A DNA stretch of 64,000 bases from Sphingomonas sp. (GTDB lineage Bacteria > Pseudomonadota > Alphaproteobacteria > Sphingomonadales > Sphingomonadaceae): positions 16,867 to 80,866 of the forward strand of contig JAFOMG010000008.1 in assembly GCA_017418975.1 (NCBI GenBank). The letters are read 5' to 3'. The position numbers and the translations under genes were made by a program. The notes beneath the pieces are model-generated. The model made no database searches. It was not told where the DNA came from and was given only the letters and a program-made list of their open reading frames with translations. Below are positions 1-15,036 of this stretch, piece after piece (the stretch's first letter is position 1; each line of letters opens with the position of its first letter).

Positions 1-1433
1 TCGCGCTGGTCGACGGTGAGCAGCGCCTTGCCGCCGACCTGCTTCACGCCGAGGAAGAACCAGTAATCGTCGTTCTGGAAGGCGACGAGGCCGGCGCGGT
101 CGCCGTCCTTTTGCGGCGCGAACCGCACCAGGGTCTCGGCATTGCCATTCTGGTGCTGCTGGCGGCGGGCGAGGAACGACGGGTTGCCGTTGTCGCCCAG
201 CCCGACCGGGCGAGCGGTGAGCTGGAGGCCGTCCTGGCCGAGCGCATACCAGCGCTCGCGCGGGTTGCGCAGCATCATCCAGTCGAACGGCAGCGTCGGC
301 CCATTGAACGAGTCGAGCCTGGCATAGATGCCGTTGATCGGCTCCGCCCCCGTGCCGCGGGGCAACGGAGGGCGGGCATGGACCCAGGGGATCGGCGTGG
401 CCGGGGGCAGGATCACCGGCCAGCCGTCCCGCCATTCCACCGGCAGCAGGAAGGTCTCGCGCCCGGTGGCGTAGAAATCGCCTTCGTACGGCCGCACCGC
501 GAGGAAGGTCGCCCACCATTTGCCATCGGGTGTGGTGACGAGCTGGGCATGGCCGGCGGAGGTGATCGGGTTCGGCCGGCCGCGCGGCAGGTCCCGCTGG
601 GTGAGGATCGGGTTGCCGCTCCACGCCTCATAAGGGCCGGTGACCGACTTCGAGCGCAGGATCACCTGGCTGTGCCCCTCGGCGGTGCCGCCCTCGGCGC
701 AGCTGAGATAATACCAGCCGTCCTTTCTGAAGATATGCGGCCCCTCGATCCAGATCGGCTTCTTCGACAGATCGATACCGCCGTTCACCAGCGCCTTGCG
801 CGGGCCGAAGGTCTTCAGCGTCTTGCGGTCGAACTCCTGGATCCAGATCGCGCGGTGGCCCTGGTAGAGCGGCGCGCCTTCGGGCGGACCGTTGTTGACC
901 ACCCAGGTCCGGCCGTCCTCGTCGAAGAACATCGAAGGGTCGATGCCGCCCTCCAGCTCGGGCAGCCAGACCGGGTCGGACCAGGGGCCGGCAGGGTTCC
1001 GCGCGGTGAGCAGGAAATTGCCGCCGCAATCGACGCAGGTGTTGAGGAGGTAGAAGATTCCGTCCCGCGCCTGGATCGACGGCGCGAACACGCCGCGCGA
1101 GAGGCCGAGCTGCCTGAAGTCGAGCATGTCCGGCCGGTCGATCGCGTTGCCGATCTGGGTCCAGTGAACGAGATCGGTGCTGTGGAAGACCGGGATGCCC
1201 GGGAACCAGCCGAAGGTGGAGGTGACGAGGTAGAAGTCCTTCCCCACCCGAGTGACGCTGGGATCGGGGTAGAAACCACGGAGGATCGGGTTGGCATATT
1301 CGCCGGGGCGGACCGTCATGCGGTCCACCGCGTCGCTGCCGCTGGTGGAGAAGCCGGAGAAGGTCGCGACCGGCTGAGCGGCAGCGGGCGCGGCGAGGAG
1401 CAGCGCGGCGAACACGGTGGGAAGGCTTCTCAT
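1..1433 (-). CDS. GH43 family glycosidase (beta-xylosidase / arabinofuranosidase type), C-terminus cut by window edge
   Basis: Secreted glycoside hydrolase expected to trim xylose or arabinose from xylan fragments. 477 codons are visible and the frame runs off the left edge, so the C-terminus is missing. An N-terminal signal peptide (about residues 1-20) is followed by the five-bladed GH43 domain. Its YPDPS box (base Asp57), the GGIDPSMFF segment (pKa-modulating Asp) and WIEGPHIF (acid Glu) form the expected triad. The last visible part (ending near GLVAFQND.YWFFLGVK) looks like the C-terminal beta-sandwich of XynB-type enzymes. It is the fifth gene of the leftward halogenase operon, and its ATG overlaps the preceding stop (ATGA, 1430-1433). 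The family call is firm; the exact sugar specificity cannot be read from sequence. Confidence 0.9.
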   Translation of the reverse strand, partial: MRSLPTVFAALLLAAPAAAQPVATFSGFSTSGSDAVDRMTVRPGEYANPILRGFYPDPSVTRVGKDFYLVTSTFGWFPGIPVFHSTDLVHWTQIGNAIDRPDMLDFRQLGLSRGVFAPSIQARDGIFYLLNTCVDCGGNFLLTARNPAGPWSDPVWLPELEGGIDPSMFFDEDGRTWVVNNGPPEGAPLYQGHRAIWIQEFDRKTLKTFGPRKALVNGGIDLSKKPIWIEGPHIFRKDGWYYLSCAEGGTAEGHSQVILRSKSVTGPYEAWSGNPILTQRDLPRGRPNPITSAGHAQLVTTPDGKWWATFLAVRPYEGDFYATGRETFLLPVEWRDGWPVILPPATPIPWVHARPPLPRGTGAEPINGIYARLDSFNGPTLPFDWMMLRNPRERWYALGQDGLQLTARPVGLGDNGNPSFLARRQQHQNGNAETLVRFAPQKDGDRAGLVAFQNDDYWFFLGVKQVGGKALLTVDQR

Positions 1434-2935
1434 GCGGCGCAATGCTCCCGGATGAAGTCGCGGTGTTTAGGCATGTAGGCGGCGGAATTGGCGACGGCCT
1501 CGCGGATATGGGCAAGGCGCGCGCGCGTCTCGTCGAGGGGCATCGCGTCGGCCACCGGATCGTGCGACCCGGGCTCGATCAGCTGGCCCAGCATCACCGC
1601 GAACCAGCTGGTGTCGTTGAACAGCTCCTCATTCTCGCGAAAGGCGCGGCCATGGCTGCGGAACACGCGCATCTTCTCGGCCAGCCGCTCGGGGATCGCC
1701 ATGGTGCGGCAATAGTCCCAGAAGGGGGAATCGGTGCGCTCGGTCGCGTGATAGTGGAGGACGAGGAAGTCGCGGATCTCCTCGTAATCCGTCGTCATGA
1801 TCCGGTTGTAGCGATCGATGTCGGCCTGGTTGAAGTCGCGGTCCGGAAACATCGTCAGGAAGCGCGACAGGCCCGACTGGATCAGCCAGATCGACGTGCT
1901 CTCCAACGGCTCGAGAAAGCCGCCCGCCAGGCCCAGGGCGACGCAGTTCTTCACCCACATCCGGTTGCGATGGCCGGTGGTGAACGGGACGACGCGCGGA
2001 TCGGCGAGCGGCTCGCCATCGAGATTGGCCATCAGGATCGCCGTCGCCTCGTCGTCGGACATGTGGTGCGACGAGAAGACATGGCCGTTGCCGATCCGGT
2101 GCTGGAGCGGGATGCGCCACTGCCAGCCGGCCTTGTGCGCGGTGCTGCGAGTATAGGGCGTCCAGGCGTCGACGCTGGCGCAGGGCACCGCGATGGCGCG
2201 GTTGCAGGGGAGATAGTGCGACCAGTCGGTATAGCCCGCCTTCAGCGCCTGCTCGATGATCAGGCCGCGAAAGCCCGAGCAATCGACGAACAGATCCGCC
2301 TCGATCTCGCTGCCGTCCTGCATCGTCACCGACTGGACGAAGCCGTCCTCGCCGCGCAGCTTCACATCGACGATCCTGCCTTCGCGCCGCACCACCCCGC
2401 GCTCCTCGGCATAGCGGCGCAGGAACCTCGCATAGAGGCCGGCATCGAAATGATAGGCATAGGCGATGTCGGAGAGCGGGGAGTTGCCCGCGTCGATCCC
2501 GCGCATGAACTTGTCGTCGCGCGCCGCCATCGCCTGGAGCGACCATGCGTCCACCTCCGGCGCCTCACCCAGCTGGCGCAGGCGGAGATAATAAGCGTGG
2601 AAGGACACTCCCTTCATGTCGAGCCCGTAGCGGCCGAAGGGATGGAAATAGCGATGGCCGATCCGCCCCCAGTTCACGAACTGGATGCCGAGCTTGAAGC
2701 TGCCCTTGGTCTCGCGGACGAACTGGTCCTCGTCGAGCCCGAGCATGCGGTTGAAGGTGGCCATCTGGGGGATGGTCGCCTCGCCCACGCCGATGATGCC
2801 GATCTCGTCCGACTCGACCAGCGTGATCTTCGCGTAATCGGGGCCGAGGATACGGGCGAAGGTGGCCGCGGTCATCCAGCCGGCGGTGCCCCCGCCGACG
2901 ATCAGGATGGAGCGGATGTTGCGGTTATCGGTCAT
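1430..2935 (-). CDS. Flavin-dependent halogenase family protein (Trp_halogenase), paralogue 1
   Basis: 501-residue FAD-dependent halogenase family protein (PF04820 type). Visible hallmarks are the dinucleotide-binding GGGTAGW near residues 14-20, the candidate catalytic lysine K81 in GSFKLGIQF, WQWRIP at 271-276 (the WxWxIP halogenase signature) and E345 in EPLEST. K81 and E345 correspond to PrnA Lys79 and Glu346. In this family reduced flavin, O2 and halide give HOCl/HOBr that is handed to an electron-rich aromatic. No signal peptide, so cytoplasmic. It is the fourth gene of the five-gene operon, overlapping its neighbours by 4 bp on both sides. No flavin reductase gene is in the window. The natural substrate is unknown; relatives beside TonB receptors in Xanthomonas and Brevundimonas halogenate indoles in vitro. 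Confidence 0.9.
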   Translation of the reverse strand: MTDNRNIRSILIVGGGTAGWMTAATFARILGPDYAKITLVESDEIGIIGVGEATIPQMATFNRMLGLDEDQFVRETKGSFKLGIQFVNWGRIGHRYFHPFGRYGLDMKGVSFHAYYLRLRQLGEAPEVDAWSLQAMAARDDKFMRGIDAGNSPLSDIAYAYHFDAGLYARFLRRYAEERGVVRREGRIVDVKLRGEDGFVQSVTMQDGSEIEADLFVDCSGFRGLIIEQALKAGYTDWSHYLPCNRAIAVPCASVDAWTPYTRSTAHKAGWQWRIPLQHRIGNGHVFSSHHMSDDEATAILMANLDGEPLADPRVVPFTTGHRNRMWVKNCVALGLAGGFLEPLESTSIWLIQSGLSRFLTMFPDRDFNQADIDRYNRIMTTDYEEIRDFLVLHYHATERTDSPFWDYCRTMAIPERLAEKMRVFRSHGRAFRENEELFNDTSWFAVMLGQLIEPGSHDPVADAMPLDETRARLAHIREAVANSAAYMPKHRDFIREHCAA

Positions 2936-4449
2936 GCAGGGGTCCTTGCGGGCGCGTTGCGGGCGAGCCAGTCTTCGTGGCGCGGCATCGCCCGGGCGGC
3001 GCGGGCGAACATCTCGTGGATGCGCTCCAGGCTGAGCGCGAGCTTGTCTTCGTCGAGCCCGTCGGCCAGCGGATCCCAGCCGGCCGGGATCACCCCCTGC
3101 CCCAGCAGCACCGCGATCCAGCTCGATTCGGCGAACAGCTCGTCCTCGGTGCGGAAGAAGCGGCCACGATTGCGGAACAAGGCGAGCTTGCGCGCCAGCG
3201 TCTCAGGGATCGCCATCTCGCGGGCGCGGCGCCACAGATCGCCCTCCCGCCGCGTATTGGCATGGTAGTGCAGGATCACGAAGTCGCGGACCTGCTCCAT
3301 CTGGACGTCGGCCAGCCGGTTATATTCGTCGCGCTCGACGGGCGAGAAGCCAGTATCCGGCAGCAGCGCCATCAGCCTGTGGATGCCCGACTGGATCAGG
3401 TGGATGCTGGTGGATTCAAGCGGCTCGAGGAAACCGGAGGACAGGCCGAGCGCGACGCAGTTGCGGTGCCAGGCCCGCTTGCGACGGCCTGCCTCGAACC
3501 GGAGGATGAAGGGATCGCGGAGCGCCGCGCCGTCGAGGTTCGCCAACAGCGTCTCGCGCGCCGCATCGTCCGAGATGTCGGCGCTGCAATAGACATGGCC
3601 GTTGCCGACGCGGTGCTGGAGCGGGATGCGCCATTGCCAGCCGGCCCGGTGCGCAGTGCTGCGGGTGAAGGGCGTGATCTCCGGCCCCGGGCTGGCGCTG
3701 GGCACCGCGACGGCGCGATCGCATTGCAGCCAGTGCGCCCAGCTCTCCCAGCCTGCCCCCAGCGCCTGCTCGATCAGCAGCGCGCGGAAGCCGGTGCAGT
3801 CGACGAACAGCTCGCCTTCGACGCGGCGATCGCCTTCGAGCATCACCGCCTCGATGAAGCCGTCCTCGGCGCGCAACGGGATGTGCGCGACCTTGCCCTC
3901 GACCCGGACGACGCCGCGCGCCTCGGCATGGGCGCGCAGGTACCGGGCATAGAGCGAGGCATCGAACTGATAGGCATAGGCCATGCGCGACAGGATCGAG
4001 CCGGGATCGGCGACCGGCGGCTGGTAGCGCCCCGACGCCATCGCCAGCGCGCAGACATTGTATGCGTCGATCGCGCGCGCGCGGCCCCCGGCGTGGAGCT
4101 TGCGCCAGATCTGGTGAAACTTCACGCCCTCGACATCGAAGCCGAACTCGCCGAACGGGTGGACATAGCGATGGCCCTCGCGCGTCCAGTCCACGAACTC
4201 GATGCCGAGCTTGATCGTGCCCTGGGTCCGGCGGAGGAAGTCGTGCTCGTCGAGGCCAAGCAGCGCGTTGAAGTTGCGGATCGGCGGGATCGTCGCCTCG
4301 CCGACCCCGACCGTGCCGATCTCTTCCGATTCCACCAGCGTCACCGAGACGCCGGCGGGGATCAGCCGGGCGAGCGCGGCGGCCACCATCCAGCCGGCGG
4401 TGCCGCCGCCGACGATGACGATCCGGCGGATCGGCGCGGGAGCGGTCAT
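2932..4449 (-). CDS. Flavin-dependent halogenase family protein, paralogue 2
   Basis: 505-residue paralogue. The ATG at 4449 is chosen because it overlaps the upstream stop (ATGA) and places the GGGTAGW flavin motif at residues 14-20; the frame is open further upstream but that part has no family similarity. The halogenase core is intact: K80 in GTIKLGIEF, a WQWRIP signature and EPLEST with the catalytic-type Glu. Like the other copies it ends with a segment rich in conserved aromatic residues (DFVILHYHA, ESSWIAVLLGQ). Predicted cytoplasmic FAD enzyme. It is third in the operon, between a degenerate paralogue upstream and paralogue 1 downstream, which implies co-translation and possibly hetero-oligomers. 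The substrate is unknown. Confidence 0.9.
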   Translation of the reverse strand: MTAPAPIRRIVIVGGGTAGWMVAAALARLIPAGVSVTLVESEEIGTVGVGEATIPPIRNFNALLGLDEHDFLRRTQGTIKLGIEFVDWTREGHRYVHPFGEFGFDVEGVKFHQIWRKLHAGGRARAIDAYNVCALAMASGRYQPPVADPGSILSRMAYAYQFDASLYARYLRAHAEARGVVRVEGKVAHIPLRAEDGFIEAVMLEGDRRVEGELFVDCTGFRALLIEQALGAGWESWAHWLQCDRAVAVPSASPGPEITPFTRSTAHRAGWQWRIPLQHRVGNGHVYCSADISDDAARETLLANLDGAALRDPFILRFEAGRRKRAWHRNCVALGLSSGFLEPLESTSIHLIQSGIHRLMALLPDTGFSPVERDEYNRLADVQMEQVRDFVILHYHANTRREGDLWRRAREMAIPETLARKLALFRNRGRFFRTEDELFAESSWIAVLLGQGVIPAGWDPLADGLDEDKLALSLERIHEMFARAARAMPRHEDWLARNAPARTPA

Positions 4450-5867
4450 GCGATCAGTCCCTCGGCACGCAGCATGGCGCCGTGATGCGGCATCGCGCGG
4501 ACGGCGTCGAGGATCAGCGCGCGAACCCGCCCGGCATGGTCGATCAGCCGCGCCTCGGAAATGGCATCGGCCAGCGCATCGTAACGGCGCGGACGCAGGC
4601 CCTGGCCGTCGAGCGCGGCGATCCAGTCGTCCGCCCCGAACAGCTCCTCGTCGCCGAGCGGCACCCGGCCCCGGCTGGCATGGAGATCGAGCTTGCGCCG
4701 GAGCGCCTCGGGGACAGGCATGGCGCGGGCGGCGTCCCAATGCGCCTCTCCGGTGCGGCCATTGGTCTTGTAGTGGAGGATCGCGAAGTCGCGGACGCTA
4801 TCGGCCTCCGCCGCGGTCAGGCGATTATATTCGGCCGCCTCGGGGCCGTCCGGCGCGGCGGGGAGCAGGCCGACCAGCCGGGTGAGCGCGTTCGCGAGCA
4901 GCGCCAGGTTCCAGCCATGGAGCGGCTCGACCCGCAGCGCCGCGGCGCCGAGCGCGACGACATTGCCGGTCCAGGCAGCCGTGCGGCGCCCCTGGACTAG
5001 CGGAATGGCGCCGGGCTGATCGGGCAGCTGCGCGGCGGCATAGAAGAGCGCCCCGCCCTGCCCGCCGGCCAGCGGCACGGTGCGCTGCCAGCCGGCTTCG
5101 AAGGCGCCGGCATGGGCATGGGGCGGCGGCACGCCTTCCACCTCGGTCCAGGTTTCGATGACGCGATCGCAGGGAAGCCAGGCGGACCAGTCCTCCCAGC
5201 GATCGTCCAGGCGGCGCGCGAGCGATGCGCCGGGGCCGGAGCAGTCGAGCCAGAGATCGGCGGTCACCTGGCCGCCTTCGCGAAGCTCGACGGCGCTGAC
5301 CGTCCCCTCGCCGATCGCCCGGTGGAAGCGGCCAGCCGGCTCCAGCCCGGCTGCGGCACGGAGCGCATCGGCCAGGCCGGCGCGATCGAGATGCAGACCA
5401 TAGCCGAAGCTCGAGAGGATCGAGCGCGGATCGGGGCTCGGCCGGGCGAAGCGACCCGCGGCGGCGGCGATCGCGGCGAGCGAATAATCGGCGAGGCGCA
5501 CGCGCTGCCCGGCCTCGCGCATGCGGGCAGCGAGCTGGTGGAAGGCGATGGTGGCGAGCGGCGCCCCGATCGTGCCGAAGGGCAGGAACCAGTCCGCCTC
5601 GCGCGCCGCCCAGCCGGAGACCGCGGTGCCGAGCGAGAAGCTGCCGCGCGCGGCGCGCAGAAGCGCGCCTTCGTCGATGCCGTGCGCGCCGAGCCAGGCG
5701 GGGAAATCCGGCAGGCTGGCCTCGGCCGGGCCGAAAGGCCCCAGGCTCCAGTCGGGCCCCTCGGTCTCGATCAGCGAGACCTGGATCCCGGGAAGCGCCC
5801 GGACGAGCGCCAGCGCCGCCATCCAGCCGGCGACGCCGCCGCCGACAATGCCGATGCCGCGGATCAT
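4446..5867 (-). CDS. Divergent Trp_halogenase-family paralogue lacking the catalytic Lys and Glu
   Basis: 473-residue member of the same family, recognisable from end to end (GGGVAGW flavin motif at 10-16, DLWLDCSGPG, DFAILHYKT). Every residue diagnostic of halogenation is altered. The catalytic lysine is Ser78 (GSFSLGTAV), the Glu of EPLEST is replaced (EPLHGWN, His317), and WxWxIP reads WQRTVP, losing the second Trp. The frame is intact, with no stop or frameshift, and the gene is embedded with ATGA overlaps on both sides, so it looks maintained rather than decaying. It could be a non-halogenating flavoprotein, a different monooxygenase, or a structural partner of the active paralogues. The ATG at 5867 is chosen from the ATGA overlap; activity is inferred only from residues. 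Confidence 0.85.
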   Translation of the reverse strand: MIRGIGIVGGGVAGWMAALALVRALPGIQVSLIETEGPDWSLGPFGPAEASLPDFPAWLGAHGIDEGALLRAARGSFSLGTAVSGWAAREADWFLPFGTIGAPLATIAFHQLAARMREAGQRVRLADYSLAAIAAAAGRFARPSPDPRSILSSFGYGLHLDRAGLADALRAAAGLEPAGRFHRAIGEGTVSAVELREGGQVTADLWLDCSGPGASLARRLDDRWEDWSAWLPCDRVIETWTEVEGVPPPHAHAGAFEAGWQRTVPLAGGQGGALFYAAAQLPDQPGAIPLVQGRRTAAWTGNVVALGAAALRVEPLHGWNLALLANALTRLVGLLPAAPDGPEAAEYNRLTAAEADSVRDFAILHYKTNGRTGEAHWDAARAMPVPEALRRKLDLHASRGRVPLGDEELFGADDWIAALDGQGLRPRRYDALADAISEARLIDHAGRVRALILDAVRAMPHHGAMLRAEGLIA

Positions 5868-7315
5868 GCCGGCATCCCCAATGCGGCTTCGTGCAGGGGC
5901 ATCGCCTCCGCCATCGCGGCGACCCTGGCCCGCATCGCGGCCATGGCGGCGGCGACGCCGGCCCCGCCCGCGCGCGGATCGCAGTGGCGCGGCGTCACAT
6001 GCTGGCCGAGATAGACCGCGAGCCAGCTCGGCTCGAGGAACGTGCCTTCGCGATACCGGACCACCACGCCGCGCTCGCGGAACAGGGCGAGCTTGTGTTC
6101 GAGCGAGTCCGGCAGGCGCATGGTGCGGCAATGGCGCCAGAATTCGGAATCGTCGCGCTGCGTGCAGTGATAGTGCAGGATCAGGAAATCGCGGACCCGC
6201 TCATATTCGAGCGCCATCAGCCGGTTGAACTCGGCCGCGTCGAGCGGGTCCCAGTCGCGGGTGGGGAAAAGGTCGAGCAGCCGGCCGATCGCCAGCTGGA
6301 TCAGGTGGATGCTCGTCGATTCCAGCGGCTCGAGAAAGCCCGAGGACAGGCCGATCGCGACGACATTGCCCACCCATTGCCGGCGCCGCCTGCCGGTGAC
6401 GAAGCGCAGGCGGTTGGGCTCGGCCATCGGCTCGGCGGCGATCGCGCCGAGCAGGACCCGCAGCGCATCCTCGTCGCTGGTGAAGCCGCTCGCATAGACA
6501 TGGCCGTTGCCGGTGCGGTGCTGGAGCGGGATGCGCCAGGTCCAGCCGGCCTCCTGCGCGGTCGCGCGGGTCAGCGGCGGGATCGGGCCGCTATTGGCGC
6601 AGGGCAGCGCGATCGCCCGGTCGCAGGGCAGCCAGTGCGTCCATTCCTCATAGCCGGCATGGAGCGCCTGCTCGATCAGCAGGCCGCGAAAGCCCGAGCA
6701 ATCGATGAACAGGTCCGCCGCCAGCGTCTCGCCGCTCTCGAGCGTGAGCGAGCGGACGAAGCCGCTCTCGCCGTCGCGCGCGACATCGATCACCTTGCCC
6801 TCGCGCCGGACGACGCCGCGCGCCTCCGAATAGGTGCGCAGGAACCTCGCATAGAGGCCGGCGTCGAACTGATAGGCATAGTTGTAGGGATCGCCGTCGG
6901 GCCGGCGGAAACGGCCGCGGCGGGCGGCCTGGATGGGCAGCGAATATGCCTCGAACGCCCCGGCTTCCGGCGCCGCGCACCATTGCTGGTGGAAAGGCAC
7001 GCCGCCGATGGGCGCGCCGAACTCGGCGAAGGGATGGATATAGGAATCGCCCTTGCGGCCCCAGTCCACGAACTCGATGCCGAGCTTGTAGGTGCCCCTG
7101 GTCGCGGCGAGGAAATCGGCCTCGTCGATGCCGAGCGTCGCGTTGAAATGGCGGATGTGCGGGATCGTCGCCTCGCCGACGCCGACCGTGCCGATCTCCG
7201 CCGATTCGACCAGGGTGATCCGCGCGGGCGTGCCGGCGAGCTTGTGCGCCAGCGCGGCGGCAGTCATCCACCCCGCGGTGCCCCCGCCGACCACGACTAT
7301 GCGCCCTGCCAGCAT
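5864..7315 (-). CDS. Flavin-dependent halogenase family protein, paralogue 4 (first gene of operon)
   Basis: 483-residue halogenase with a complete signature set: GGGTAGW at 10-16, K77 in GTYKLGIEF, WTWRIP, and EPLEST with the conserved Glu. The ATG at 7315 is preferred because a GGAAG ribosome-binding site lies just upstream and the flavin motif then begins at residue 10. The frame is open for 49 further codons upstream, but those codons cross the promoter and operator. As first gene of the halogenase-GH43 operon it is read from a promoter at 7343-7371 containing a LacI-type half-matched palindrome. It diverges from the TonB-dependent receptor gene at 7588, supporting a shared role for transport and halogenation. 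The substrate is unknown. Confidence 0.9.
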   Translation of the reverse strand: MLAGRIVVVGGGTAGWMTAAALAHKLAGTPARITLVESAEIGTVGVGEATIPHIRHFNATLGIDEADFLAATRGTYKLGIEFVDWGRKGDSYIHPFAEFGAPIGGVPFHQQWCAAPEAGAFEAYSLPIQAARRGRFRRPDGDPYNYAYQFDAGLYARFLRTYSEARGVVRREGKVIDVARDGESGFVRSLTLESGETLAADLFIDCSGFRGLLIEQALHAGYEEWTHWLPCDRAIALPCANSGPIPPLTRATAQEAGWTWRIPLQHRTGNGHVYASGFTSDEDALRVLLGAIAAEPMAEPNRLRFVTGRRRRQWVGNVVAIGLSSGFLEPLESTSIHLIQLAIGRLLDLFPTRDWDPLDAAEFNRLMALEYERVRDFLILHYHCTQRDDSEFWRHCRTMRLPDSLEHKLALFRERGVVVRYREGTFLEPSWLAVYLGQHVTPRHCDPRAGGAGVAAAMAAMRARVAAMAEAMPLHEAALGMPA

Positions 7316-7342
7316 GCTTCCGATGCCCCTCTCCGTCGCGAA

Positions 7343-7371
7343 TGTTAGCGCTCCCGTCTCGAAACCGTCAA
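7343..7371 (-). promoter_or_regulatory. Predicted promoter and LacI-type operator of the halogenase-GH43 operon
   Basis: Read leftward, a -35-like TTGACG (7366-7371) and a -10-like CTAACA (7343-7348) are separated by exactly 17 bp. The plus-strand 14-mer TGTTAGCGCTCCCG (7343-7356) overlaps the -10 box and matches the TGTTAGCGCTACCA form of the palindromes found before the receptor gene and D-mannonate dehydratase in 12 of 14 positions. A repressor bound here would cover the promoter. Box and operator are seen; regulation is inferred. Confidence 0.5.
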
Positions 7372-7550
7372 TCGTATCCAGGGGCGATTCGAGGCCGGAA
7401 TCCCTCCTTCGCAGCTGCGGGATTCGTGCCGCGACGCAACGAAACCGTTGCGAAATAGCCACAAATCCGTGGGTTGCAGCGAAACGTCACAAGACGGCTT
7501 GATCTTTCGATAACTCCTACTTTAGGTTCGGCCCAAACAAGAAACGCGCC

Positions 7551-7570
7551 AATATATGGTAGCGCTAACA
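7551..7570 (+). promoter_or_regulatory. LacI-type operator (TGGTAGCGCTAACA) with adjacent -10-like box before the TonB receptor
   Basis: TGGTAGCGCTAACA at 7557-7570 is a 14-bp near-perfect palindrome with a central CG, differing by one base from the perfect site at 15023. An AT-rich -10-like AATATA (7551-7556) abuts it, the same layout as at 14997-15036. The site is only 18 bp from the receptor ATG. It resembles GCGC-centred operators of LacI-family sugar regulators. Confidence 0.6.
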
Positions 7571-7587
7571 CGGGAGGGGACAGCGCG

Positions 7588-10500
7588 ATGCGAAAGCACG
7601 ATTCTATTCATCATGCCGACAAGGCGGGCCGGTTCCGCACCGGGGCCCTGCGCGCGGGCGTCTCGGCCGCCGCGCTCGCCTGCCTGTCGGTAGCCGCGCC
7701 GGCCTGGGCGCAGGACACGCAGGCGGCGCCGGCTTCGGGCGACGCGCAGACCACGGAAGACACGATCGTCGTCCAGGGCTATCGCCAGTCGCTGCAGAGC
7801 GCCCAGTCGCTCAAGAAGAATGCCGACGTGATCGTCGATTCGGTGACCGCCGAGGACATCGGTGCCCTGCCCGATCGTTCGGTGACCGAGACGCTGCAGC
7901 GCATTCCCGGCGTGTCGATCAATCGCTTCGCCGCCGGCGTCGACCCCGACCATTTCTCGGTCGAGGGCTCGGGCGTCGTGGTGCGCGGCCTCACCTATGT
8001 CCGCTCGGAGTTCAACGGGCGCGAGGCGTTCACCGCCAATAACGGCCGCTCGCTGAGCTTCGCCGACGTGCCTTCGGAGATGATGGGCGGCGTCGACGTG
8101 TTCAAATCGCCCTCGGCCGACCGCATCGAGGGCGGCATCGCCGGCGTGGTCAACCTGCGCACCCGCAAGCCGTTCGACAACAAGAAGGGCCTGGTGATCG
8201 CCGGTTCGCTCGAGGCGAATTACGGCGACTACAAGAAGGAATGGACGCCGACGGGCTCGCTCATGGTCAGCGACCGCTGGGAGACCGGCATCGGCGAGAT
8301 CGGCATCCTCGGCAACTTCTCCTATTCGCAGCTGAAGAGCCAGTCGGACCGTTTCCAGGTCTCGAGCTTCCGCATCCGCAACCTCTATTCGGACGGCGAC
8401 GTCATCAACAACGGCAATGGCTCGACGATCCAGCGCCAGGTCTATTTCCCGCGCGGCGCGGTGATGGGCCGCCAGGAGTTCAACCGCGAGCGCTACGGCT
8501 ATGCGGCCGCGCTCCAATATCGCAGCAATGACGGCTCGATCGAGGCGGTCGCCCAGTTCCTGCGCTCCGACGCGCGCCAGGCCTGGACCGAGCGCACGAT
8601 CGAGATCGCGACCGACAACGTCTCGTCCAACGGCGATTCCCGCCGCGTGCCGGGCACTACGCTCGACTTCGACAGCGACGGCATGTTCGTGAGCGGCACC
8701 ATCACCGGCCCGACCGGCTGGCGCGGCGACCAGAATATCGGCCAGAACAACAGCGGCCTGATCCCGCGCGTGCCGATGCTCGGCCTGCAATCGAACAACC
8801 AGCGGCGCGACCACCAGGAGAAGCTCGTCACCGACGATTACGGCTTCAACCTGAAGTGGAACGCCAGCGAGCGGCTGGGCGTGGTCTTCGACTATCAGCA
8901 CGTGAAGTCGAGCACCGACCTGCTCGACAACACGGTGTGGAACTCGACCTATCAGAATGCGTCGATCCGGCTGAACGGCTCGAACTTCCCGACCGTGGCC
9001 TTCCTGCCGCCCCAGGTCTGCAGCGGCCCGGCCGCCAACATGCAGGACGCGCAGGGCACGGACAATGACTGCCGCGCCGGCGGCAACCCCAACCAATATA
9101 TGCCGAACTATTTTGGCGCCGGGCACACCAGCTTCACCGATCCGTTCAACAGCTTCCCGCGCGCGGCGATGGACCATATCGAACGGAGCGACGGCAATTC
9201 GGACGCCTTCCGCCTCGACCTCGACTATGCGCTGCCCCAGGGCAGCTTCCTGAAGTCGATCCAGGGCGGCGTGCGCTATGCCGATCGCGACCAGGTGTCG
9301 CGCTTCTCGCGCTACAATTGGGGCGTGCTCTCCGAGCAATGGGGCAATAACGGCCCGGTCTGGATGGACATGCCGGTGAACGGCAACAATGCCAGCCGCA
9401 CCGACGGCCAGCCGTTCAACGCCAACTCGCCTTATTATTTCAACAATTTCTTCCGCGGCCAGGTGACCAACCCGCTCGGCGGCGATGGGCGCCTCTATTA
9501 TTCGGGCAACACCGTCAGCGATTATGACGCGATGGTGCGCTATGCCAATGCGATCGCGCGCGAATGGCAGGGCACGACCACCTGCGCCGGCGGCCGCGTG
9601 GTCAATGCCGGCTGGAACGCGCTGGCCGATCGCTGCGGCGTGATCGCCGGCACGCCGTTCCTGCCCGACGAGATCAACCCGATCCGCGAGCGCAACTATG
9701 CCGCCTATCTGATGGCGCGCATCGACACGCATCTGGGCGGGCTGCACCTGACCGGCAATGTCGGCGTGCGCTACACCAAGACCAGGCGCAATACCGATGG
9801 CTATATCTCGTTCAGCAACACCACGGCGCTGCCGACCGACGAGACCTGCGCCACGCCGCCGCCGTCCGGGCAGACGGCTTCGCCCTTCTGCTCGTTCGAC
9901 AAGCCGGTCCGCGACCAGGCGCGCGCCTTCGTCAACGGCGCGCTGATCCCGTCGCACGTCAAATTCGACTATGACTATTGGCTGCCGAGCGCGAACTTCA
10001 AGCTCGAGGTGGGCGGCGGCCTGCAGTTCCGCGCCGCCTATTTCAAGGGCGTGTCGCCGCCCCAGACCGGCTATATCCGCAACTATCTCCAGGCCAATCT
10101 GAGCGCGGTCCAGAATGTCGATTCGAGCGGCAACCTGATCCCGGGCAGCTTCCGCCTGCAGGGCGTCACCACTGCCGGCAACCCCTATCTGATGCCGGTA
10201 AAGGCCGACAATTTCGACCTGACGGCGGAATGGTATTTCTCGCGGGTCGGCTCGCTGACCGTGTCGGCCTTCTACAAGGTGCTCGACGGCGTGGTGACCA
10301 ACAACACCCGCCGTGTGGACCTGACCAACAACGGCCAGACCTATCCGGTGGTGATCACCACGCCGATCAACGCGACGCAGAAGGGCAAGATCAAGGGCGT
10401 CGAGGTCGGCTACCAGCAGACCTTCGACTTCCTGCCCGGGCCGCTCAAGGGCCTGGGGTTGCAGGCGAACTACACCTATATCGACAGTTCGGGCGTGCCA

Positions 10501-10929
10501 CAGTCGACTTTGTCGGAGACCGATCCGGACGTCGCTGCCGGCCGCGTCACCACGGTCGACCTGTCGCTGCTGCCGCTGCAGGGGCTGTCGAAGCACCAGG
10601 TGAACATCACCCCGTTCTTCGATTATGGCCCGGTGTCGCTGCGGGCGAGCTATTCGTGGCGGTCTGACTTCGTGCTGACCATTCGCGACGTGATCGTGCC
10701 GAATGACCCGATCATCAACAAGGCGACCGGCCAGCTCGACGCGTCGATCTTCTTCACCATCACCCCGCAGATCAAGATCGGCGTCCAGGGCTCGAACCTG
10801 ACCAACGAGATCACCCGCACCACGGCGGTGATCACGAAGATCGGCGACCCGAAGGGATATGTGGAAGTGCCGCGCGGCTGGTACATGAACGATCGCCGGT
10901 TCGCCGCGATCGCGCGCTTCAACTTCTGA
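7588..10929 (+). CDS. TonB-dependent receptor, probably for xylo-oligosaccharides
   Basis: 1113-residue outer-membrane receptor that would import a sugar ligand using TonB energy. The ATG at 7588 follows a strong GGGAGGGGA ribosome-binding site. A signal peptide ends at AWA near residue 43. The plug domain starts after a TonB-box-like stretch (DTIVVQGYR) and includes VTETLQRIPGVSINR. The C-terminus ends in a typical final beta strand with terminal Phe (AIARFNF). The length and plug type (SusC-like 'TonB-dependent receptor' of Caulobacter/Xanthomonas sugar loci) suit carbohydrate uptake, and GH43, GH67 and GH10 genes surround it. It diverges from the halogenase operon, shares its operator type, and ends at a bidirectional terminator. 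Ligand identity is inferred from context. Confidence 0.92.
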   Translation: MRKHDSIHHADKAGRFRTGALRAGVSAAALACLSVAAPAWAQDTQAAPASGDAQTTEDTIVVQGYRQSLQSAQSLKKNADVIVDSVTAEDIGALPDRSVTETLQRIPGVSINRFAAGVDPDHFSVEGSGVVVRGLTYVRSEFNGREAFTANNGRSLSFADVPSEMMGGVDVFKSPSADRIEGGIAGVVNLRTRKPFDNKKGLVIAGSLEANYGDYKKEWTPTGSLMVSDRWETGIGEIGILGNFSYSQLKSQSDRFQVSSFRIRNLYSDGDVINNGNGSTIQRQVYFPRGAVMGRQEFNRERYGYAAALQYRSNDGSIEAVAQFLRSDARQAWTERTIEIATDNVSSNGDSRRVPGTTLDFDSDGMFVSGTITGPTGWRGDQNIGQNNSGLIPRVPMLGLQSNNQRRDHQEKLVTDDYGFNLKWNASERLGVVFDYQHVKSSTDLLDNTVWNSTYQNASIRLNGSNFPTVAFLPPQVCSGPAANMQDAQGTDNDCRAGGNPNQYMPNYFGAGHTSFTDPFNSFPRAAMDHIERSDGNSDAFRLDLDYALPQGSFLKSIQGGVRYADRDQVSRFSRYNWGVLSEQWGNNGPVWMDMPVNGNNASRTDGQPFNANSPYYFNNFFRGQVTNPLGGDGRLYYSGNTVSDYDAMVRYANAIAREWQGTTTCAGGRVVNAGWNALADRCGVIAGTPFLPDEINPIRERNYAAYLMARIDTHLGGLHLTGNVGVRYTKTRRNTDGYISFSNTTALPTDETCATPPPSGQTASPFCSFDKPVRDQARAFVNGALIPSHVKFDYDYWLPSANFKLEVGGGLQFRAAYFKGVSPPQTGYIRNYLQANLSAVQNVDSSGNLIPGSFRLQGVTTAGNPYLMPVKADNFDLTAEWYFSRVGSLTVSAFYKVLDGVVTNNTRRVDLTNNGQTYPVVITTPINATQKGKIKGVEVGYQQTFDFLPGPLKGLGLQANYTYIDSSGVPQSTLSETDPDVAAGRVTTVDLSLLPLQGLSKHQVNITPFFDYGPVSLRASYSWRSDFVLTIRDVIVPNDPIINKATGQLDASIFFTITPQIKIGVQGSNLTNEITRTTAVITKIGDPKGYVEVPRGWYMNDRRFAAIARFNF

Positions 10930-10949
10930 TCCACGGAAACACCCAGCCT

Positions 10950-10986
10950 GGCGCTGCCGGTTCCCAGCCGGCGGCGCCGATTTTTT
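10950..10986. terminator. Bidirectional Rho-independent terminator
   Basis: An 11-bp stem (GGCGCTGCCGG with CCGGCGGCGCC, one G-T pair) around a 7-base loop is followed on the plus strand by GA and six Ts. It ends the receptor transcript, and the T run directly adjoins the stop codon of the opposing oxygenase gene. Confidence 0.8.
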
Positions 10987-11696
10987 CAGGCCGGGCGATA
11001 GGTGAGGAAGATGTTGGCGGTGAGCCGGCCGCGGCGCGGATCGGCCGAGCCGGAGCCGGCAACCAGCCCGGAATGCAGCTGGCGGCTGCGATAGACCAGC
11101 AGCCGGTCGAACGCGGCGTCCACCGCGGCGATCCGCTCGAATTCCCCGGTATCGCCATGGATATAGCCCTGCGCGGGCACCGGCTCGGCGGCGCGGGCGG
11201 CTTCGTAGCGCGGCGCGCGCTCGGGCGTGATCGCCTCATAGCCGGTGGCGCGGTGGCGATAGAAGCCGGTGCCGCCCAGCTCGGGCCCGCACAGATAGTG
11301 CAGGAAGGCGAATTGCAGCGGATCGGTGGTATCGATGTGTGGGGCACGCTGCGACGGTGCGAGCGCATCGGGCGCGAGCGTGACCAGCGAGAAATTGCAC
11401 TCGGCCCGGCCCAGGCGGACCGCGCCCAGCCCGAACGCCTCGCGCACCGCCGGATCGAGCGCGCGGACCACCGCCTCGACATAGTCGAGCGGCGCCGGCG
11501 CGCGGATGCCCGGATAGCCGCCCTGCGGGCCATGGACGGGCGCGAACCGGGTCTCGCGCGCGGCATAGTCGACCAGGGCCGCGGGCGCGCGCATCAGCCC
11601 GTCGAGGCGGAGCAGCGGCTCCCCTTCACGTCCCAGGTGCGAAAGGCGGGCGGCGGGACGCGGATTGAGCGAAAAATCATGCGACGACACGGACAT
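10986..11696 (-). CDS. 2-oxoglutarate/Fe(II) oxygenase-like protein (DUF6445 / Pass1-like)
   Basis: 236-residue protein with a double-stranded beta-helix dioxygenase signature: an HxD pair in PHIDTTDPLQ, a distal His in RQLHSGLV and an Arg in RLTANIFLTYR near the C-terminus, as expected for Fe(II) and 2-oxoglutarate binding. Proteins of this kind (I recall them as DUF6445 or 'Pass1-related') commonly sit next to Trp_halogenase genes and TonB receptors in Caulobacter, Sphingomonas and Xanthomonas. The ATG at 11696 is chosen for fit to the family N-terminus; no strong ribosome-binding site is visible. It is divergent, 54 bp away, from the cupin-like gene and convergent with the receptor. The substrate is unknown; hydroxylation of a peptide, glycan or halogenation partner is speculative. 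Confidence 0.7.
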   Translation of the reverse strand: MSVSSHDFSLNPRPAARLSHLGREGEPLLRLDGLMRAPAALVDYAARETRFAPVHGPQGGYPGIRAPAPLDYVEAVVRALDPAVREAFGLGAVRLGRAECNFSLVTLAPDALAPSQRAPHIDTTDPLQFAFLHYLCGPELGGTGFYRHRATGYEAITPERAPRYEAARAAEPVPAQGYIHGDTGEFERIAAVDAAFDRLLVYRSRQLHSGLVAGSGSADPRRGRLTANIFLTYRPA

Positions 11697-11750
11697 GCCG
11701 GGGACACGAACCACCCGGATATGACCAGCGCATTTCCGGGATAGCGAAAA

Positions 11751-12770
11751 ATGCCCAGGCGGGAGGAAGCACGGATCCGCGAGATCGAGGGGCCGCTGGA
11801 CGCCGCCACATTGGGCACGCTCGTCCAGGACTATGCGCCCGTGGTGCTGCGCGGCGTGGCGCGGGACTGGCCGCTGGTGGCCGCCGCCGGGCAATCGGAC
11901 GAGGCGGTGCGCGACTATCTGCTCGGCTTCGATCGCGGCGCCCTCGCCGAGGCATTTGTCGGCCCGCCGGCGATCCGCGGCCGCTTCTTCTATTCCGAGG
12001 ACATGCGCGGCTATAATTTCGAGCGGCGCAAGGGGCCGTTCGCCGACCTGCTGCGCTATGTGCTGCAATTGCGGGACCGGGACGACGCGCCCGCCGTCTA
12101 TGCCGGCGCGGTGGAGACGACGCAGGCGCTGCCGGGCCTGGCCGGCGCCAATGCCCTGCCCGCCCTGCTGGGCATGGGCGCCGAGCCGCGCATCTGGATC
12201 GGCAACCGGACCAGCATCAGCACCCATTTCGACGCGTCGGACAATATCGCCTGCGTCGCGGCCGGGCGGCGGCGCTTCACCCTGTTCCCGCCCGACCAGA
12301 CGGCGAACCTCTATATCGGCCCGCTCGATCACAATGTGGCGGGGCAGCCGCTGAGCATGGTCGATATGGCCGACCCCGATTTCGCGCGCTTCCCGCGCTT
12401 CCGCGAGGCGCTGGCGGCGGCGCGGACGGCCGAGCTCGAACCGGGGGACGCGATCTACATCCCGGCGCTCTGGTGGCATCAGGTGGAGGCGCTCGCGCCG
12501 TTCAACGTGCTGGTGAACTTCTGGTGGCCGGATTCGCCCGACCAGGATGCGCGCTTCGACGCGATGATCCATGCGGTGCTGGCGCTCAGCCATTTGCCGC
12601 CCGAGCGGCGCGCGGCCTGGTCCGAATATTTCGACACCTTCGTCTTCCAGGAACATGGTGATCCGGCGGCGCATCTGGCGCCCGAGCATCGCAGCGTGCT
12701 GGGCGAGCCCACGCCGCAGCTGCGCCGGTATATCAAGCAATATCTGGCGCGAGGATTGGCGAGGCCTTGA
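11751..12770 (+). CDS. Cupin-8 / JmjC-like Fe(II) oxygenase
   Basis: 339-residue cupin-like protein of the JmjC-type hydroxylase group (PF13621). Metal-site residues are visible: HxD in STHFDASDN and a distal His in LWWHQVE, with a basic RRRFTLFPP strand between them, as in FIH-like enzymes. These hydroxylate protein or small-molecule side chains using 2-oxoglutarate. The family repeatedly accompanies Trp_halogenase and TonB-receptor genes in Proteobacteria. It is transcribed divergently from the second oxygenase-like gene and ends before a long perfect hairpin shared with the convergent GH67 gene. No signal peptide, so cytoplasmic like the halogenases. The substrate is unknown. Confidence 0.8.
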   Translation: MPRREEARIREIEGPLDAATLGTLVQDYAPVVLRGVARDWPLVAAAGQSDEAVRDYLLGFDRGALAEAFVGPPAIRGRFFYSEDMRGYNFERRKGPFADLLRYVLQLRDRDDAPAVYAGAVETTQALPGLAGANALPALLGMGAEPRIWIGNRTSISTHFDASDNIACVAAGRRRFTLFPPDQTANLYIGPLDHNVAGQPLSMVDMADPDFARFPRFREALAAARTAELEPGDAIYIPALWWHQVEALAPFNVLVNFWWPDSPDQDARFDAMIHAVLALSHLPPERRAAWSEYFDTFVFQEHGDPAAHLAPEHRSVLGEPTPQLRRYIKQYLARGLARP

Positions 12771-12804: not shown

Positions 12805-14961
12805 TTACTTCCCCTGCCCCGGCGCATAGGGAGTGTTGATCGCCTTGTAGTAATCCAGGTCGTGCGCGGGCGGCTTGTGCCCTTCGGGCAGCGGGCGCTT
12901 CGAGATCGACTGGAACCAGGCGATCGAGGCGTCACGCCACCAGACCGCCTCGTCCAGCTGGATCGCCAGGAAATCGCGGACCTCGGCCCAGCGGGTCTCG
13001 TCGACCTTGCCGCGCAGCCTCGCCCAATCGGCCTGCATGCGGCGGACCTGCTCCACCCCGGCATCGTAGCGCACCACGAATTCGTCCCACAGCGTGCGCC
13101 CGGACTTCATCCGGTGGTCCCAGGGGACATGGTGGAACCAGAGCAACAGTTCGTCCGGCACCGTCGCCAGGCTGCCCCAGCGCCTCGCAACCTGCGGCGC
13201 ATATTGGGCGAGCGCGTCGCTGCCCCTGGCGGTACGATCGAAGCCGATGCCGTCGGGGCGGGCCTGTGCATAATAGACCGGGTTCCATTCGGGCCGCTTG
13301 AGATCCGAGACCCAGGGCCCAGGACCATAATGATGGCCGGTCGCCATCTGGTGCGTGAGGCCGAGCGGCGTCATGTAATCGACCACCGCCTCGCGCGAGC
13401 CCATCATCATGCGAACCACCGTGCCGGTCACCGCGGGATCGCCGCCCCAGGTCATCCGCGCCCAATCGCGCGCGATCGCCTCGGCCTTCGCGTCCGGATC
13501 CCAGGCGAAGCGGCCAAAGGCGTACCAATTGGCCTGGTCGAACTGCGAGCCGGACCAGTTGCGGTCGCTGCCGATATTGGCGACGCCCGCCATGCCGGTG
13601 GCGGCGCCGGCATCGACCGGCGTCTCGATCACCTTGGCCACGGTGCTGCCCCTGGCCGGGCGGAAGGTATCGGCCTCGAGCACTTCCTCCCACATCGTGC
13701 CGAGATAGGCGAGGTGCGTGGCGAAGCCGAGATATTCCTTGGTGATCTGGAATTCCATCATCAGCGGCGTCTTCGGCATCGCGCCGAACAGCGGATGAAA
13801 GGGCTCGCGCGGCTGGAAGTCGATCGCGCCGTTCTTGACCTGGACAAGGACATTGTCGCGGAACTTGCCGTCGAGCGGCTGGAACTCGGTATAGGCCTGT
13901 TTGTGCCGGTCCTCGGCATTCTCGGCGGCATAGACGAAGGCGCGCCACATCAGGATGCCGCGATGCGGGGCGAGCGCGTCCGCCAGCATGTTGGCGCCCT
14001 CGGCATGGGTGCGGTGATAGTCCGCCGGGCCCGGCTGGCCCTCGGAATTGGCCTTGACCAGCAGGCCGCCGAAATCTGGAATGACGGCATAGATCTCGTC
14101 GATCTTCGCCTGCCACCAGGCGCGGACCGCGGGATCGAGCGGATCGGCGGTCTTGAGCCCGCCCAGCTCGATCGGCGCGGAGAAGCGCGCGGTGAGATAG
14201 ACCTTGATGCCATAGGGCCGGAACACCTCGGCCAGCGCCTTCACCTTCCGGAGATAGTCGGGCCGCAGGATGTCGGCATTGGCGTTGACGTTGGTCAGGA
14301 CCGTGCCGTTGATGCCGATCGAGGCATTGGCCCGGGCATAGTCGGTGTAGCGCGGATCCTTGTGCAGCGGCAGCTTCTGCCAGTCCCAGATCGACTGGCC
14401 GGCATAGCCGCGCTCGACATGGCGATCGAGATTGTCCCAATGGTTGAGGACGCGGACCTGGAGCTTGGGAGCGTCGACGATGTCGAGCCTGTCGATCGGC
14501 TGGCCAGCCTGGAGCAGGGCGAGGAAGCGGAACACGCCGTAGAGCGCGCCGATATCGCTGTTGCCGGCGATGATCGTCACGCGCTTGCCCTGCACGGTCG
14601 CGCTGCGGAGCAGATAGCCCTCGCCCCCCAGCCGGGCGAACGGCAGGTCGAGCCCCTGCAGCAGCGGCGTGCCGGCGCGGACGACCAGCACCGCGCCATC
14701 GCGAAGCCCGGCCTCCTTCCCAGGCAGGTCCCCGCCGAACATCCCGCGATAGCCGCGCCGGAGCTCGTCGGCGGCAACCCGGATCGTCGGGCTGTCGCCG
14801 GGCGCGACAATGCCGGCTATCAGCGGTTCATAGCGCGCCCTCGCGGCGGATTCGAGCGGCCGATAGCGCAGCCAGAGATCATATCCGTCCTCGGCATGGC
14901 CTTGATTCGCAAGGCCGAAACACAAAAACGCAGACAAAATAGCCAGCAATTTCCGAAGCAT
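12805..14961 (-). CDS. GH67 alpha-glucuronidase
   Basis: 718-residue exported enzyme that removes (4-O-methyl)-glucuronic acid from the end of aldouronic acids released from glucuronoxylan. The catalytic regions known from Cellvibrio GlcA67A are present: NSEGQPGP (acid Glu) and GKFRDNVLVQVKNGAIDF followed by QPREP (the Asp and Glu that activate water). The ATG at 14961 follows an AGGAAGAG ribosome-binding site and opens a signal peptide ending at GHA. It is transcribed away from D-mannonate dehydratase across a shared 132-bp control region with a perfect LacI-type operator, fitting release of glucuronate followed by its catabolism. The length is usual for the family. Confidence 0.95.
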   Translation of the reverse strand: MLRKLLAILSAFLCFGLANQGHAEDGYDLWLRYRPLESAARARYEPLIAGIVAPGDSPTIRVAADELRRGYRGMFGGDLPGKEAGLRDGAVLVVRAGTPLLQGLDLPFARLGGEGYLLRSATVQGKRVTIIAGNSDIGALYGVFRFLALLQAGQPIDRLDIVDAPKLQVRVLNHWDNLDRHVERGYAGQSIWDWQKLPLHKDPRYTDYARANASIGINGTVLTNVNANADILRPDYLRKVKALAEVFRPYGIKVYLTARFSAPIELGGLKTADPLDPAVRAWWQAKIDEIYAVIPDFGGLLVKANSEGQPGPADYHRTHAEGANMLADALAPHRGILMWRAFVYAAENAEDRHKQAYTEFQPLDGKFRDNVLVQVKNGAIDFQPREPFHPLFGAMPKTPLMMEFQITKEYLGFATHLAYLGTMWEEVLEADTFRPARGSTVAKVIETPVDAGAATGMAGVANIGSDRNWSGSQFDQANWYAFGRFAWDPDAKAEAIARDWARMTWGGDPAVTGTVVRMMMGSREAVVDYMTPLGLTHQMATGHHYGPGPWVSDLKRPEWNPVYYAQARPDGIGFDRTARGSDALAQYAPQVARRWGSLATVPDELLLWFHHVPWDHRMKSGRTLWDEFVVRYDAGVEQVRRMQADWARLRGKVDETRWAEVRDFLAIQLDEAVWWRDASIAWFQSISKRPLPEGHKPPAHDLDYYKAINTPYAPGQGK

Positions 14962-14996: not shown

Positions 14997-15036
14997 TTGA
15001 CAAGCTTGTAACAGGGCAACAATGGTAGCGCTACCA
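14997..15036 (+). promoter_or_regulatory. Predicted promoter with perfect LacI-type operator TGGTAGCGCTACCA
   Basis: A consensus -35 TTGACA (14997-15002) is followed 17 bp later by a weak -10 (CAATGG, 15020-15025), which overlaps a perfect 14-bp palindrome at 15023-15036. The site lies between GH67 and D-mannonate dehydratase and could control both directions. It is the best example of the operator also seen at 7343 and 7557. Confidence 0.65.

Follow-up and report, generated by a model that had tools for sequence, protein, structure and literature searches.

Why would a bacterium keep a run of flavin-dependent halogenase genes beside a TonB receptor gene in a locus for the use of xylan? The question is raised by a stretch of 64,000 nucleotides of Sphingomonas sp. 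(contig JAFOMG010000008.1, positions 16,867 to 80,866 of the forward strand), the whole of which is called the window here. Near its left end, four consecutive halogenase-family genes (HAL1 to HAL4) stand with the receptor gene, with two genes for predicted oxygenases of the DUF6445 and Cupin_8 families, and with several glycoside hydrolase (GH) genes. Halogenase genes near TonB receptors are already known. The explanation favoured below, which is held tentatively and falls somewhat short of probable, is that the halogenase operon and the receptor belong to a xylose-responsive xylan regulon and exemplify an accessory cassette that is widespread among TonB-receptor glycan loci, with a mechanism that most likely tailors the receptor.

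Halogenase operon, receptor and common operator

Gene calls and Pfam/NCBIfam scans place the operon leftward from position 7315 to 3 in the order HAL4-HAL3-HAL2-HAL1-GH43. Its first gene, HAL4 (5864..7315, minus strand; PF04820, 626.2 bits), is followed on the same strand by HAL3 (4446..5867; 312.6 bits), HAL2 (2932..4449; 632.5 bits), HAL1 (1430..2935; 663 bits), and a GH43 gene of the beta-xylosidase type (3..1415; PF04616, 328.9 bits; PF17851, 92.5 bits) whose C-terminal part is cut by the window edge. Each of the three HAL-HAL junctions is a 4 bp overlap, as judged from gene starts set by a simple custom caller, on whose start choice the overlaps depend. Divergent from HAL4 is the receptor gene (7588..10929, plus strand; 1,113 residues), a member of the TIGR01782 subfamily by its score of 699.6 bits against a cut-off of 310. 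The initial annotation had described four consecutive Trp_halogenase genes and a GH43 gene in one operon divergent from a TonB receptor, and the gene calls and the scores for PF04820, PF04616, and TIGR01782 bear this out.

The same genome holds 14 PF04820 genes at nine places, at seven of which one of its 21 above-cut-off TIGR01782 receptors is no more than 5 kb away, and the gene order from HAL1 to GH10 is kept in nine named loci (L204-L212); the arrangement is therefore not a matter of chance. Among the loci listed, the nearest belongs to Sphingomonas sp. CBMAI 2297 (DUF6445 99% identical) and the next to S. leidyi (94%), whose strain DSM 4733 has the syntenic block (L205). A TIGR01782-type receptor also lies within 5 kb of a HAL in 32 of 40 HAL-centred loci (14-20 kb), which were hand-picked among the best-listed matches (nine on account of degenerate HALs) and are not a random draw; a different TonB receptor is present in L153, L166, and L167, three of the remaining eight.

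The divergent promoter region of HAL4 and the receptor carries a LacI-type palindromic operator, TGGTAGCGCTAACA (7557..7570), and a second copy, TGGTAGCGCTACCA (15023..15036), lies in the divergent promoter region of the GH67 and ManD genes. Both fit the palindrome TGNTAGCGCTANCA, which we take to resemble the Caulobacter XylR operator. With one mismatch allowed, the window contains two matches against 0.05 expected. Exact matches to TGNTAGCGCTANCA number five in the 4.69 Mb genome (three for a reversed-pattern control), four of them in a 29 kb stretch of this contig: before the xylose-catabolism genes, between the LacI and GH3 genes, at HAL4/receptor, and at GH67/ManD. The genes behind the palindrome include that for D-xylose 1-dehydrogenase. 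Since these promoters have the operator in common, the HAL operon and the receptor are predicted in silico to belong to a LacI/XylR-type xylose regulon. In the Caulobacter D-xylose regulon of the LacI-type regulator XylR there is a counterpart, from which the present case differs in that the palindrome also covers the HAL operon and the receptor. The fifth genomic site (G000:C4:705823-705836) lies between a GDSL lipase gene and an M1 peptidase gene.

Both window operators are retained in all nine syntenic loci L204-L212. By the called genes, all 37 operator sites listed across the loci are intergenic, as are two in control regions (L285, L300). Other genera and species also carry the operator in HAL/receptor promoters (L136-L138, L142, L213, L217, L300), and in L213, L220, and L278 it precedes DUF6445. 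Within the window it stands before xylan hydrolase genes and HAL/receptor, as it does before the xylose-catabolism genes to the left of the window, and not in the DUF6445/Cupin_8 region. Induction by xylan, raised earlier for the halogenase operon, thus has an in-silico counterpart that extends to the HAL operon and the receptor and stops short of the two oxygenase genes.

Linkage to HALs also follows receptor phylogeny. In a tree of 52 linked receptors (8 from the own genome, 12 from DUF6445-centred and 32 from HAL-centred loci) and 43 unlinked ones (13 from the own genome and 30 from nine genomes without a HAL match, with at most 22 candidates scored per genome), the label switches 7 times; shuffled labels gave 31.4 changes, and none of 500 shuffles gave as few as the tree. 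Clade B, which contains the window receptor, has 22 linked and no unlinked members, and a starch-type clade has 21 linked and one unlinked. The motif [NT]Wxx[LIV][SAG]xxW occurs in 22 of the 52 linked receptors (exactly those of clade B) and in none of the 43 unlinked; at residues 577-585 of the window receptor, it is a possible substrate site, a possible glycan contact, or possibly just a mark of the clade.

Degenerate paralogue and predicted oxygenases

HAL1, HAL2, and HAL4 retain the GxGxxG motif, the catalytic Lys, WxWxIP (WQWRIP in HAL1 and HAL2, WTWRIP in HAL4), and the catalytic Glu within PLES, the residues expected of flavin-dependent halogenases. HAL3 keeps GxGxxG and has Ser in place of the catalytic Lys, WQRTVP in place of WxWxIP, and PLH in place of PLE; it is a member by sequence family only. 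The count of four halogenases in the initial annotation therefore stands for family membership, but the catalytic degeneracy of HAL3 had been missed. A paralogue in the same genome (L023) likewise lacks Lys and Glu (Thr and His instead).

The closest solved structures for HAL1, HAL3, and HAL4 are 6frl (BrvH), 9luq, and 6y1w (presumably XccHal), all ahead of the free-tryptophan halogenases; the E values of the 6frl match are 9.4e-154, 1.7e-76, and 5.7e-139, respectively. In PrnA-type enzymes, the C-terminal part is the site of the tryptophan contacts. The alignment of HAL4, the one of HAL1, HAL2, and HAL4 that was compared with PrnA, stops at PrnA residue 428 of 538, whereas its alignment with BrvH reaches residue 499 of 511; the C-terminal part of PrnA is accordingly not common to HAL4, which lacks the PrnA-like substrate-binding region of a free-tryptophan halogenase. 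PrnA, RebH, and Thal thus resemble the window enzymes in their PF04820 family and expected chemistry, and PrnA differs from HAL4 in this C-terminal part. The BrvH/XccHal-type enzymes (6frl, 6y1w, 9luq) are closer, being the best solved relatives over almost the full length, with Lys, WxWxIP, and Glu as in HAL1, HAL2, and HAL4; they differ in that four HALs, one degenerate, here form one operon, with two predicted Fe(II)/2-oxoglutarate (2OG) oxygenases nearby and a common xylose-type operator. The BrvH paper (PMC5945002) reports low activity on free indole and none on tryptophan, a site that could admit larger substrates, and a second halogenase gene beside that for BrvH.

Degenerate members are not peculiar to this operon. 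In an alignment of 244 HALs of at least 300 residues from the mapped loci, 207 keep both Lys and Glu and 37 were flagged as being without them; among the 37 are a fragment (L097) flagged only because its Lys region is missing, three that keep Glu (L142, the second copy of L214, L226), and one that keeps Lys (L246), and they are not independent because they contain near-duplicates (the window and L204; L075 and L221, seemingly one genome). A same-strand canonical HAL adjoins 34 of the 37, and 28 are flanked on both sides, whereas 58 of the 207 canonical HALs adjoin another canonical HAL. An exact 4 bp overlap is found at 64 of 92 tandem HAL junctions. Degenerate HALs also occur within the arrays of Kordiimonas (L275) and Bowmanella (L279). 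A second degenerate HAL right after DUF6445, apart from the tandem array, was seen in two loci (L214:10725-12206 and L217:10798-12183).

Comparison of the window with eight syntenic loci (L205-L212) gave median ratios of nonsynonymous to synonymous substitution (dN/dS) of 0.30 for HAL3 (range 0.22-0.46), 0.16 for HAL1, 0.19 for HAL2 (a median that counts an odd value against L208, 0.55 at 67% identity, perhaps a wrong pairing), and 0.25 for HAL4; the corresponding medians are 0.25 for the receptor, 0.23 for DUF6445, and 0.27 for Cupin_8. A dN/dS of about 0.30 across syntenic loci argues that HAL3 is not a decaying gene. By its sequence, HAL3 is a conserved protein under purifying selection that has lost the known catalytic residues.

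The two oxygenase candidates lie to the right of the receptor. The initial annotation had the receptor "followed by" both; each gene is present, but DUF6445 (10986..11696, minus strand; PF20043, 249 bits) converges on the receptor gene and is transcribed away from Cupin_8 (11751..12770, plus strand; PF13621, 230.7 bits); a single transcript therefore does not run from the receptor into DUF6445. Pfam lists DUF6445 as a family of unknown function. Its residues H120xD122, H208, and R224 do not vary among 54 sequences (or among the 22 of a smaller set), as predicted for an HxD...H facial triad with a 2OG-binding Arg. An AlphaFold2 model (mean predicted local distance difference test score, pLDDT, 95.4) has a predicted double-stranded beta-helix fold, and 39 of its 43 Foldseek matches in the PDB at E <= 0.001 are named Fe(II)/2OG-type oxygenases, the others being 3bvc, 2rg4, 8fnc, and 3pl0. 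The nearest folds include PolD, HygX, KanJ, Tpa1, OGFOD1, and Pseudomonas putida P4H. TM-scores are at most 0.48 to query length, and the likeness to these prolyl hydroxylases and small-molecule oxygenases is therefore at the superfamily level only; a sequence-profile search of the PDB with DUF6445 gave no convincing relative and one chance-level match. DUF6445 is thus predicted, from conserved residues and a confident model fold, to be an Fe(II)/2OG oxygenase.

Cupin_8 has H159xD161 and H243 in all four own-genome paralogues compared, and a profile of these paralogues matches FIH, JMJD5, and JMJD7 in the PDB. It is a predicted JmjC/Cupin_8 oxygenase, nearest by sequence to the protein hydroxylases FIH and JMJD5, from which it differs in being bacterial and in its glycan-uptake locus. 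The earlier suggestion of two putative Fe(II) oxygenases agrees with the HxD...H triads of both proteins and with the resemblance of the DUF6445 model to Fe(II)/2OG oxygenases. SapC (PF07277), another family of such loci, lies between receptor and Cupin_8 in L225, L228, L231-L234, and L239. No HxD...H motif was seen in 15 aligned SapC sequences, and a SapC model built from a 10-sequence alignment (pLDDT 68.7) gave zero Foldseek matches at E <= 0.001.

Halogenases and DUF6445 occur together far more often than expected by chance, as the initial annotation had supposed. DUF6445 matches were found in 53 of 199 genomes of the family, from which loci were fetched for the 38 strong matches outside the own genome (at least 169 bits) and for two of 23 weaker ones. 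Of these loci, 39 have a called DUF6445 gene, and in 22 of the 39 the nearest HAL is no more than 10 kb from it. A second set of named loci comprises the 80 best of 387 DUF6445 matches in the genome collection. A HAL is present in 58 of these 80 (51 of the 61 longer than 20 kb), and within 10 kb of DUF6445 there is a HAL in 57 of 79, a Cupin_8 gene in 23 of 79, and a SapC gene in 10 of 79. One locus per set (L072, L241), in which the DUF6445 gene was uncalled, was left out of the distance counts. In comparison, arbitrary 20 kb stretches of ten family genomes, chosen by round coordinates, contain a HAL in one of 19 (L300, which happened to fall on a HAL array), a receptor in two, and Cupin_8 in one. 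The cassette recurs across Alpha- and Gammaproteobacteria.

In Bowmanella dokdonensis (L279), all five families stand in one same-strand run: receptor, HAL, degenerate HAL, HAL, DUF6445, receptor, Cupin_8, HAL, two DUF6445-like pieces, and SapC. DUF6445 genes without a HAL have conserved settings of their own, beside ThiC (in some loci also with YadA-type, adhesin-type genes) or beside Rieske oxygenase and pseudouridine synthase genes; these settings are found in L062-L067 except L065, and in L070, L077, L078, L084, L089, L091, and L095.

Candidate substrates and rival explanations

HALs, some with DUF6445, are placed beside enzymes for several kinds of glycans, with substrates read from family names. 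Xylan-type neighbours are GH10, GH43, and GH67, plus GH115 in Cellvibrio (L266); starch-type neighbours are GH13 and GH97; a chitin-type neighbour is GH20 with a fused phosphotransferase system (PTS) protein in Caulobacter (L237); and beta-galactoside-type neighbours are GH2 and GH31 (L240). GH3 of the beta-glucan type is found beside HALs in L018 and L164, a mannosidase-like GH2 in L017, and a glucosaminidase-like GH2 in L134, so that HALs are found in loci for starch and for chitin as well as in beta-galactoside, beta-glucan, and mannan-type loci. Of the 29 neighbours scanned, several are not sugar enzymes (among them a DEAD-box helicase, an aldo/keto reductase, an aldehyde dehydrogenase, a TPR protein, a P-type ATPase, and a LuxR-type protein). 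In L237, the GH20 hexosaminidase and fused PTS protein are followed by HAL and DUF6445, and the Caulobacter loci L243, L248, L250, L253, L254, and L257 have gene sizes and order like it; these are perhaps a chitin or N-acetylglucosamine version of the cassette.

The cassette would consist of BrvH-type halogenases, in some clades with an inserted non-catalytic HAL paralogue, to which some loci would add one or two Fe(II)/2OG oxygenases (DUF6445, Cupin_8) and SapC. A sugar would derepress the locus, and cytoplasmic enzymes would then oxidatively tailor a protein encoded there, with the receptor precursor, not yet exported, as the most likely candidate. HAL3 may act as a non-catalytic partner of the neighbouring HALs, whose genes overlap its own by 4 bp. 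The scheme is built on gene content, catalytic residues, the DUF6445 fold, the common operator, recurrence, and the several glycans, all read from sequence or model; to these it adds a protein substrate, the timing before export, and a heteromer, which we infer. By eye, the N-termini of the HALs and oxygenases are without a signal sequence; the enzymes would accordingly be cytoplasmic and their substrate either a pre-export protein or a small molecule. A co-expressed exported protein, most likely the receptor, is favoured because Cupin_8 is nearest to protein hydroxylases and because BrvH is poor on free indole and without tryptophan activity. The linkage to receptor clades, the several glycans, operator sharing, and the adjacency and dN/dS of HAL3 also speak for receptor tailoring, as do the prolyl hydroxylases Tpa1, OGFOD1, and P. 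putida P4H among the fold matches of DUF6445.

Several results weigh against it. Within 5 kb of the HAL in the 40 HAL-centred loci, Cupin_8 occurs in 7, SapC in 2, and DUF6445 in none, which makes the oxygenases optional companions of HALs. The 54 bp between DUF6445 and Cupin_8 in the window contain no copy of the operator. The receptor tree was sampled in a way that favours clustering, since 30 of the 43 unlinked receptors come from genomes chosen as HAL-less and 44 of the 52 linked ones were fetched for HAL or DUF6445. One receptor of the starch-type clade (L197/L284) occurs in a genome without a HAL match, and its 20 kb neighbourhood is HAL-free; for at least that receptor, a HAL is dispensable. 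An aromatic residue specific to all HAL-linked receptors was looked for and not found, and no target residue confined to linked receptors is common to all linked clades. The distance correlation between HAL and receptor (0.588) is close to that between LacI and receptor (0.579) in the 27 loci with all three genes; it is 0.349 over 66 loci and not significant in the own genome (p 0.112). The fold matches of DUF6445 also include the small-molecule oxygenases PolD, HygX, and KanJ. The direct tests of the receptor as target being negative, confidence in the receptor reading has been set accordingly. The most specific form of the proposal, in which outer-membrane sugar receptors of the cell, or partner proteins, are halogenated and hydroxylated before they are exported, the dead HAL has a structural or substrate-presenting role, DUF6445 is a new Fe(II)/2OG family, and the imported sugar is the inducer, is put forward as an unlikely idea.

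The strongest rival, doubtful but a serious possibility, is that the enzymes, at times when glycans can be had, halogenate and hydroxylate a free indole- or phenol-like aromatic to yield a halogenated signal or an inhibitor of competitors, the locus providing the regulatory context only. BrvH, a related enzyme, does brominate free indole in vitro (PMC5945002), but with low activity. Own-genome distances are about 0.6-1.0 among HALs against 1.3-3.5 among receptors, and HALs more conserved than their receptors would suit one common substrate; the resemblance of DUF6445 to small-molecule oxygenases points the same way. Against a small molecule, no further biosynthetic genes were found among the annotated neighbours (most neighbours were mapped by length only), and linkage tracks receptor clades, with the sampling caveat given above.

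It is improbable that the Trp_halogenase proteins are flavin mono-oxygenases or reductases of sugar-acid or redox metabolism, with HAL3 as a sign of drift. Halogenation by the window HALs is a prediction, and the 37 of 244 HALs without catalytic Lys or Glu would agree with such a function, but both residues are kept in HAL1, HAL2, HAL4, and 207 of the 244, and BrvH, the nearest solved relative with a described activity, is a halogenase (PMC5945002).

Less probable again is a role in aglycone or lignin chemistry, in which the enzymes act on ferulate or lignin-derived aromatics freed from xylan. With its GH10, GH43, and GH67 genes and its xylose-type operator, the xylan locus would suit this idea, as would the fifth operator beside a GDSL-family hydrolase gene whose product could be an esterase, but ferulate would not be expected in the starch (GH13, GH97), chitin (GH20), and lactose-type (GH2) loci that also contain HALs, and no feruloyl esterase or ring-cleavage family appears among the genes annotated, which are part of the window and loci. 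HALs beside several glycan types argue against an aromatic peculiar to xylan, and the glycan survey, with its beta-galactoside loci, led to the rejection of ferulate or lignin as a general account. Of the interpretation first offered for this locus, the gene identities, the two putative Fe(II) oxygenases, and the co-occurrence have held, as has xylan induction in its in-silico form for the HAL operon and the receptor, but the aromatic substrate as a general explanation has not.

That paralogous HALs have simply spread along with receptor loci by coincidence, being neutral or of slight use, is very improbable. In its favour, their correlation with the receptor equals that of LacI, and the starch-type receptor locus L284 has no HAL; against it, the four HALs have median dN/dS values of 0.16-0.30, the operator is kept in nine of nine syntenic loci, and the arrangement recurs across Alpha- and Gammaproteobacteria.

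Surrounding genes and known systems

To the right of Cupin_8 lie a GH67 gene of the alpha-glucuronidase type (12805..14925, minus strand; three GH67 domains), a D-mannonate dehydratase gene, ManD (15094..16305, plus strand; NF043051 equivalog, 723.5 bits against a cut-off of 550), and a GH10 gene of the xylanase type (16322..17458, plus strand; PF00331, 242.3 bits); Pfam/NCBIfam scans agree with the identities first assigned to these three. In the contig, the full GH43 protein has 549 residues, and its gene is followed beyond the window edge by a GH9-family gene with a 4 bp overlap. Farther leftward are a LacI regulator and a GH3 gene, a sugar porter, and a dihydroxy-acid dehydratase-family gene, as well as FAA-hydrolase-like, SMP-30-type, and D-xylose 1-dehydrogenase genes (the last NF053674, 434.2 bits against a cut-off of 400). 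Downstream of GH10, an AAA_33 P-loop protein gene overlaps a PfkB-type hexose kinase gene by 4 bp (17539-19463). Elsewhere in the window (53208-56585), a single protein of 1,125 residues unites GH18, polysaccharide deacetylase, and family 2 glycosyltransferase domains.

The TonB-receptor carbohydrate-uptake loci of Xanthomonas reportedly combine receptor, regulator, glycoside hydrolases, and sugar porter, as does the locus here. A term search of the text of a paper on those loci (PMC1790865) found no halogenase, SapC, or cupin, and one of the text of PMC6431674 gave no match; the available parts of PMC2996990, PMC4052901, PMC7142613, and PMC12844025 do not mention a halogenase. Halogenase-receptor-oxygenase loci are not described in the titles and abstract beginnings searched, which is weak evidence because most subscription journals lie outside that coverage. 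The combination of HALs with DUF6445 or Cupin_8, with a dead paralogue, and with a xylose-type operator was thus not found in the literature searched.

Halogenases that belong in silico to a sugar regulon, together with two predicted oxygenases and a conserved dead paralogue, provide a defined inducer, a defined set of genes, and candidate substrates, and these make the question of modification directly testable. DUF6445, for its part, gains a predicted enzymatic identity.

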